Origin: Pseudomonadota bacterium
GTDB lineage: Bacteria; Pseudomonadota; Alphaproteobacteria; Rhizobiales; Hyphomicrobiaceae
Direction of reading: 5' to 3'
Assembly: GCA_018242295.1 (NCBI GenBank)
Contig: JAFECE010000008.1
Location: forward strand, 1 to 64,000
Length of the DNA: 64,000 bases
Shown: positions 46,723-47,931 of the stretch, in pieces
How positions within the stretch are numbered: position 1 is the stretch's first letter
Layout: each line of letters opens with the position of its first letter
Notes under the pieces: model-generated
What the model was told of the DNA's origin: nothing
Databases searched by the model: none
Seen by the model: the letters and a program-made list of their open reading frames with translations, nothing else
Translations under genes and position numbers: made by a program

Positions 46723-47931
46723 ATGGCGAAGGCAAAATTCGAGCGGAACAAGCCGCATTGCAACGTCGGTACGATCGGACACGTCGACCACGGCAAGACA
46801 ACGCTGACCGCAGCCTTGACGAAGGTTTCAGCCGACCGCGGCTGGACGGCGACCTCGATCGCCTATGACGAAGTTGCAAAGGCTTCCGAAAGCCAGGGCC
46901 GCCGCGACCCGACGAAGATTCTGACGATTGCTACGTCGCACGTCGAATACGCGACGCCGAACCGTCACTATGCGCACGTCGACTGCCCAGGCCACGCCGA
47001 CTACGTCAAGAACATGATCACGGGTGCCGCCCAGATGGACGGCGCGATCCTCGTCGTGTCCGCTGTCGACGGCCCGATGCCCCAGACGCGTGAGCACATT
47101 CTTCTCGCTCGTCAGGTCGGCGTGCCGAAGATTGTCGTCTTCTTGAACAAGTGCGATATCGTCGAGGACGAAGAGCTCCTTGATCTCGTCGAGATGGAAG
47201 TTCGCGAACTTCTCTCGAAGTACAACTTCCCGGGCGACGACACCCCGGTCATCCGCGGCGCAGCCGTCAAGGCCCTCAACGGTGAGAAGGGCCCGCTCGC
47301 CGACGAAGCCATCATCAAGCTTTACGAAGCGATGGACAGCTTCATCCCGATCCCGGAGCGTCCGAAGGATCAGCCGTTCCTGATGCCGATCGAAGACGTG
47401 TTCTCGATCTCGGGCCGCGGCACGGTCGTGACCGGCCGTATTGAGCGCGGCGTCATCAAGGTCGGCGAAGAAGTCGAGATCGTCGGTCTCCGCGACACGC
47501 AGAAGTCGGTCGTCACGGGCGTCGAAATGTTCCGCAAGCTGCTCGACTCGGGCGAGGCTGGCGACAACGTTGGCTGCCTCCTGCGCGGCATCGACAAGGA
47601 ATCGGTCGAGCGCGGCCAGGTTCTCTGCAAGCCGGGCTCCGTTAAGCCGCACAAGAAGTTCACCGCCGAGGCCTACATCCTGAATAAGGAAGAAGGCGGC
47701 CGTCACACGCCGTTCTTCACGAACTATCGTCCGCAGTTCTACTTCCGCACGACCGACGTCACGGGCACCGTTAAGCTCGCCGAAGGCACGGAAATGGTTA
47801 TGCCGGGCGACAACGTCTCGGTCACCGTCGAACTCGTCCAGCCGATTGCCATGGAAGAGAAGGTTCGCTTCGCTATCCGCGAAGGCGGCCGTACGGTTGG
47901 CGCCGGCGTGGTAACGAAGATCATCGAGTAG
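46723..47931 (+). CDS. tuf: Elongation factor Tu with a non-canonical switch I
   Basis: A 402-residue EF-Tu, about six residues longer than usual for the class. The P-loop GHVDHGKT (19-26), DCPGH (87-91), NKCD and domains II and III ([31 protein letters not shown]) are normal. Residues 40-69 are not: the near-universal EEKARGITI is replaced by a longer segment ending [17 protein letters not shown]. The key Thr is kept (Thr68 in ILTI), but the preceding Arg-Gly is Lys-Ile. From memory this matches planctomycete EF-Tu (RDATKTVTI) better than proteobacterial EF-Tu. The reading frame is unbroken, so this is not a frameshift. It lies 114 bp after fusA. Confidence 0.95.

Follow-up and report, generated by a model that had tools for sequence, protein, structure and literature searches.

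The tuf locus and its product

The window, which is the whole 64,000-nucleotide stretch of DNA that was analysed, contains a str operon of normal order, with tuf (46723..47931, + strand) in its usual str/S10 place. Upstream lies fusA, encoding EF-G, as an ORF listed at 44467..46608 (+ strand) with its likely ATG at about 44518, and downstream lies an ORF (48007..48315, + strand) which we take, from its translation, to be rpsJ, encoding S10. The tuf product of 402 aa is an EF-Tu by its match to the equivalog TIGR00485 (707 bits against a cut-off of 522.4). The P-loop, DCPGH, NKCD, and the switch I threonine are all kept in this Hyphomicrobium EF-Tu, and the core GTPase residues are invariant across it and 46 aligned variants. 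The G2 consensus of translational GTPases, RGITI, is absent and KILTI stands in its place, which makes the protein a variant and not an ordinary member of the EF-Tu family.

The initial annotation had singled out residues 40-69 of this protein (46840-46929), and its description of the stretch was accurate. The position is as given, the frame is intact (the ORF is open throughout its 402 codons), and the Arg-Gly before the key threonine is replaced, Arg-Gly-Ile becoming Lys-Ile-Leu by position in comparison with ordinary EF-Tu of the same family. The insertion, put at about five residues, amounts to five extra residues relative to ordinary EF-Tu, in a region where EEKARGITI is replaced; the neighbouring EF-G upstream of tuf is ordinary and retains ERGITI. 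Two aligners locate the five-residue insertion within RDPTKI (residues 61-66; 46903..46920, + strand), its exact placement being aligner-dependent, as RDPTK (61-65) by one and DPTKI (62-66) by the other. Thr68 (46924..46926, + strand) is kept and aligns with the threonine of RGITI, the one that senses Mg and the gamma-phosphate.

In alignments, the block that differs consistently between variant and ordinary EF-Tu spans residues 32-73 (46816..46941, + strand), which we take to be, in structural terms, the end of helix A and switch I. Within it, the 22 residues 51-72 (46873..46938, + strand) recur letter for letter in EF-Tu of other phyla, with exact copies in Gemmatimonadota, Acidobacteriota (one genome), Verrucomicrobiota, and Brachyspira. 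A sequencing error or pseudogene is excluded, since the ORF is open and the same segment is present in all 17 genomes of the genus that were read. No second EF-Tu was found in the window's genome (99.99% complete), in which the seven other matches are only 26-34% identical. Being the sole EF-Tu found, the variant would be expected to perform aminoacyl-tRNA delivery with ribosome-activated GTP hydrolysis.

Occurrence of the alternative switch I in the genus, the family and other phyla

The long form of the block was present in every Hyphomicrobium genome with a locus covering switch I (17/17; 22 genus genomes searched). Several related genera also carry it, other Hyphomicrobiaceae genera keep ordinary EF-Tu, and one genus (g3) holds both types. 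The idea that the segment might simply be the ordinary state of the order thus holds for Hyphomicrobium and several related genera, where it is normal, and does not extend further, as the segment is not order-wide and the tree is incongruent. A search of 79 family genomes (at least 90% complete) gave 60 with a match, of which 41 were called as this type (at least 87% identity) and 19 as ordinary-like (76-80%) on identity alone. Direct reading of 58 family loci, some from the same genome, gave 38 long forms, 19 ordinary forms, and one untyped. Among 396 sampled genomes of Pseudomonadota, a match was obtained in 274; identity above 90% was seen only in the window genome and another family member, in an identity screen that would miss a distant variant.

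With the degenerate pattern RDxTKxxTI, at least 116 stretches were found over named genomes, and among those listed, 112 were EF-Tu carrying either the long or the short block. The long form occurs in Hyphomicrobium, Nitrospira, Gemmatimonadota, some Acidobacteriota, Kiritimatiellota, Lentisphaerota, Brachyspira, Hydrocarboniphaga, and others, and also in some planctomycetes, mostly labelled Phycisphaerae. The short form is that of most planctomycetes, Verrucomicrobiota, Myxococcota, and Omnitrophota. Among sampled loci, which were the best-matching ones and not a random draw, the long form was found in 6/29 from Nitrospirota, 4/30 from Acidobacteriota (plus two with a third form), 20/29 from Gemmatimonadota, and 0/30 from Spirochaetota. 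The third form, AKADAKTFRRDATKILTV, seen at two Acidobacteriota loci (L299 and L302), is intermediate between the long and the short forms.

The switch I of the window had been described as planctomycete-like. The RDxTKxxTI core and a YxxxAK motif are indeed shared with planctomycete EF-Tu; however, most sampled planctomycetes have the short block KGGTVRDATKTVTI, three residues shorter than the long block, whereas the window EF-Tu lacks KGGTVRDATKTVTI, has the long form, and has a proteobacterial body. In a non-redundant set of Planctomycetota, the shorter RDATKTVTI was carried by 26 of 37 rows and the long form by the other 11. The alternative switch I EF-Tu recurs in many unrelated bacterial phyla and is not specifically planctomycete. 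A work of Jenkins and Fuerst from 2001 on planctomycete EF-Tu may mention the planctomycete block.

Copies of tuf per genome

No ordinary EF-Tu was found beside the variant in 28 of the 29 named variant genomes searched (30 given). The exception, Bradyrhizobium oropedii, has an ordinary EF-Tu plus a long form, the latter located outside the str operon (L042:2251-3456) among neighbours that suggest no clear function; judged by their translations, these include one ORF resembling TonB-dependent receptors and a short one resembling membrane proteins. All second full-length tuf copies fetched from variant genomes were of the variant type, and one extra copy (in G503) is a fragment without switch I and was left untyped. 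Where a family genome has two tuf copies, their scores are the same or almost the same, which is what conversion of one copy by the other would produce. In two Acidobacteriota genomes with both EF-Tu types the copies are only 73-74% identical, which gives no sign of ongoing gene conversion there.

Several more distant relatives were also noticed: a divergent extra EF-Tu-like gene with an ordinary switch I in a Hyphomicrobiaceae genome (L181 of G066; 56% identical), an EF-Tu-like gene whose switch I is degenerate, KAAGVPLNS, found alongside the long form in an Acidobacteriota genome (L366 of G602), and a very divergent EF-Tu relative in a variant genome (L529 of G526; 39% identical). An EF-Ts was found in 25 of the 26 family genomes searched, variant and ordinary alike, and a loss or a fixed change of EF-Ts was discarded as a correlate of type, no position fully separating the types in 22 readable EF-Ts sequences.

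The switch I block and the EF-Tu body have different histories

The positions that consistently separate the two types fall between residues 32 and 72. The clearest one outside is residue 146 (47158-47160), which is far from switch I in sequence; it is the Met after NKxD in ordinary EF-Tu, and Met is not the commonest residue there in any of seven variant sets. Over residues 51-72, long forms of different phyla share a mean identity of 87-91%, against 29-35% to the ordinary EF-Tu of their own phylum. The relation is reversed in domains II-III, where the variants of Alphaproteobacteria, Gemmatimonadota, and Nitrospirota resemble the ordinary EF-Tu of their own phylum more than they do long forms from elsewhere; in Acidobacteriota the difference is slight and the body signal weak.

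We compared body trees from which residues 32-73 were removed. Under a mixture model with 61 proteins, the Hyphomicrobiaceae variants grouped with alpha/beta/gammaproteobacterial EF-Tu (98/81), and Gemmatimonadota variants nested among the ordinary EF-Tu of their phylum. The type label changes six times on this tree, three of the changes being forced by well-supported branches, and a single change was obtained in 0% of 200 bootstrap body trees. One clade of all long forms was rejected on the body (AU p=1.8e-6; log-likelihood 133 lower). Quick trees agree with the careful body tree, although Brachyspira and some other variants are placed loosely. Since bodies mostly group by their own phylum and a single long-form clade is rejected, the block has its own history, different from that of the EF-Tu body, and these comparisons support the view that it is foreign-looking in Alphaproteobacteria.

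The initial annotation had proposed transfer or gene conversion of part or all of tuf, with a domain I grouping with planctomycetes as its sign. A planctomycete origin of the gene was rejected, the body being proteobacterial: a clade of Hyphomicrobiaceae and planctomycete long forms had an AU p of 0.006 (0.048 when a quick tree that included the short as well as the long planctomycete form was used), which also disposes of whole-gene transfer from planctomycetes. Separate domain trees likewise gave no planctomycete grouping of domain I. Without the block, domain I placed the Hyphomicrobiaceae variants beside beta/gamma EF-Tu (99/81), and therefore only the block is common with planctomycetes; an alphaproteobacterial clade was not rejected for domain I (p=0.228), and domains II-III alone united the variants with ordinary alphaproteobacterial EF-Tu in one clade (100/96). 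The proposal is partly supported. The separate history of the block would reflect transfer of part of tuf or repeated convergence, and of the two, partial exchange appears to fit best. The flanks of the block in the Hyphomicrobium tuf are highly conserved and its codons are uninformative for recombination junctions or donor. Serine codon families were also considered as a sign of common DNA and were uninformative, being about as mixed in the block as at other serines.

Hydrocarboniphaga effusa, a gammaproteobacterium, has an apparently chimeric EF-Tu (L110). When the block is left out, its domain I falls inside the Gemmatimonadota long forms (100/97), with a beta/gamma clade rejected (p=0.036), whereas its residues 256-305 share 84% identity with beta/gamma EF-Tu and 68% with that of Gemmatimonadota; for domains II-III taken by themselves, neither origin is rejected (p=0.40, 0.21). 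Given the proteobacterial-like residues 256-305, whole-gene transfer was replaced by partial transfer as the explanation, and the case suggests that partial tuf exchange between phyla does occur. The genome has two tuf copies of the same type.

Within Hyphomicrobiaceae, EF-G trees call for more than one flip of the type. A quick EF-G tree of 70 rows implied eight changes of tuf type (five forced), and a careful one of 25 rows implied four (three forced). In a careful search, domain I (100/100) and domains II-III (90/98) each separated variant from ordinary EF-Tu in the family, and as both split by type, the recent flips look like whole-gene replacement between two lineages. A DNA identity profile, together with a quick tree, had hinted at a domain-level mosaic within the family, but the AU test and then the careful search refuted it.

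The sarcin-ricin helix of 23S rRNA

During ribosome-triggered GTP hydrolysis, EF-Tu contacts the sarcin-ricin loop through its domain I, and both switch I of EF-Tu and this loop are textbook near-universal parts. For the helix that carries the loop (H95) we used a 16-base pattern, CTAGTACGAGAGGACC, which we take to be that of E. coli, as we do the base numbering. Among ten family genomes the pattern was found in 4/4 ordinary and 0/6 variant ones, one of the six (the window's own) being without a readable 23S. From 80 genomes picked by EF-Tu type, 61 had 23S matches and 60 were readable (39 variant, 21 ordinary). The sarcin-ricin loop itself, AGTACGAGAGGA, is unchanged in the 60 genomes read, and it is the stem beneath that is altered. 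The pattern CTAGTACGAGAGGACC, fixed beforehand, was missing in 33/39 variant against 4/21 ordinary genomes; a pattern three bases longer, a lengthening chosen after the data had been seen, was missing in 39/39 against 6/21. One Nitrospirota genome (G559), possibly a mixed one, has three unlike 23S copies (L434, L473, and L474), two of them with a canonical H95; when it is scored by its best copy, the variant counts become 32/39 for CTAGTACGAGAGGACC and 38/39 for the longer pattern.

Leaving G559 aside, all the variant genomes read have changes in the closing pairs of H95. The changes vary by lineage (e.g., U2652 opposite G2668, a U2651-A2669 pair, C2653, and changes at 2666-2667), and no single base is common to all variants. 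Base 2652 alone does not track type; of 19 alphaproteobacterial variants, 13 differ there, and in the others a base or pair next to it is altered. With stratification by phylum, the best four of the 535 columns in the final 600 bases of 23S were C2652, C2651, its partner G2669, and C2667. When 16-base segments were ranked over 23S (37 rows, four phyla), H95 came first of 2780. With masked bases taken as gaps (1627 segments), the segment one base earlier ranked first and the original CTAGTACGAGAGGACC third, with a z of 4.7 for H95 against 2.7 for the best elsewhere. None of 300 within-phylum label shuffles, which ignore kinship, reached the H95 score. In the whole-23S scan, three columns at offsets -471, -545, and -549 from C2652 outscored every single H95 column; they correlate with EF-Tu type and probably belong to the L1 stalk region.

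Within the family, three supported independent pairs of EF-Tu type and H95 all agree. Overall there are five such pairs, of which about 3.3 agree, none disagree, and the rest show no difference, too few for significance. The link between the H95 stem and EF-Tu type is promising but tentative, shared ancestry being only partly controlled. An altered H95 also occurs in some ordinary genomes, and the rRNA may therefore have changed before the protein did, making the protein change possible.

Discussion

On balance, we favour the reading that Hyphomicrobium has a working EF-Tu with a second natural switch I, whose block would have been spread by recombination, kept by selection, and paired with the H95 stem. 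The block would have moved among tuf genes by transfer and gene conversion at its highly conserved flanks. The long switch I would act at GTPase activation on the ribosome, either paired with a matching H95 stem or tolerating an altered one. More tentatively, bacteria may exist in at least two compatibility types of EF-Tu and sarcin-ricin helix, with the cassette moving between phyla with or after compensating changes of the H95 closing pairs, and the interface would then be rebuilt repeatedly.

The same switch I could instead have arisen several times under a common constraint, for instance after a change of H95, with no transfer of the block. Bodies that mostly follow the host phylum would be expected from such convergence, the codon families show no sign of recent common DNA, the shorter form and the third form (AKADAKTFRRDATKILTV) exist, and with H95 departures also in genomes with ordinary EF-Tu (6/21 by the longer pattern) the rRNA could have changed first. 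Nevertheless, a five-residue insertion and about a dozen identical substitutions would be needed at least three times, up to 22 of 22 block residues are identical between phyla, and H. effusa suggests that tuf can be partly exchanged across phyla; we consider convergence unlikely. Less probable still is an old EF-Tu lineage, inherited vertically and through whole-gene transfers, for which the host-like grouping of the bodies would be a tree artefact. The separation of the two types over the whole gene within Hyphomicrobiaceae is in keeping with it, and Brachyspira is among several variants whose bodies do not sit firmly with their own phylum, but this reading is already disfavoured by the single long-form clade, which is 133 log units worse (p=1.8e-6), and by the Gemmatimonadota variants that nest among the ordinary ones of that phylum.

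It is conceivable, though very improbable, that the variant was selected by EF-Tu-directed proteases or toxins such as Lit through removal of their target. The Lit protease of E. coli prophage e14 cuts the RGITI of EF-Tu switch I at Gly59-Ile60 (PMC3014915). The Gly-Ile bond is missing from the variant motifs compared; however, target removal does not predict the link to H95. Under the favoured reading of a recombined block paired with H95, the loss of Gly59-Ile60 would also remove the Lit cleavage site, as a side effect.

In full length, P-loop, DCPGH, NKCD, key threonine, place in the str operon, and an EF-Ts in the host, the variant resembles the ordinary bacterial EF-Tu of TIGR00485. It differs in the lack of RGITI, the five extra residues, the changed end of helix A, and the usual replacement of the Met after NKxD, and the H95 of its relatives' rRNA is altered. 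The paralogue EF-G II is likewise a translational GTPase that lacks the RGITI consensus and shows replacements specific to lineages; its motif is relaxed, Ser takes the place of Thr, and it occurs alongside EF-G I (PMC3150367). In contrast, the block of the variant EF-Tu is highly conserved, keeps the threonine, and serves the sole EF-Tu found. The distinct EF-Tu subfamily of actEF-Tu and Streptomyces Tuf3 offers another parallel, although Tuf3 is an additional copy linked to stress (PMC4342817), whereas the variant EF-Tu replaces the ordinary gene. In eukaryotes, eEF1A and EFL are two nearly exclusive forms of one factor (PMC4342817), but the bacterial EF-Tu forms differ mainly in one block and not over the whole protein. 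The accessible parts of the literature consulted, mostly non-subscription, hold no account of this variant EF-Tu form or of a link between switch I and H95 (PMC4342817, PMC3150367, PMC3014915, PMC3444138, PMC6310460, PMC5574714, PMC13351119, PMC5770160).

The natural switch I alternative of Nitrospira, Hyphomicrobium, Gemmatimonas, and Brachyspira provides ready-made paired variants for studying how the ribosome triggers GTP hydrolysis. The results suggest that part of an essential and highly connected gene may have a history of its own, a point of relevance wherever tuf serves as a phylogenetic marker. If the compatibility types are real, a GTPase-activation interface that is thought to be universal would have been rebuilt repeatedly.
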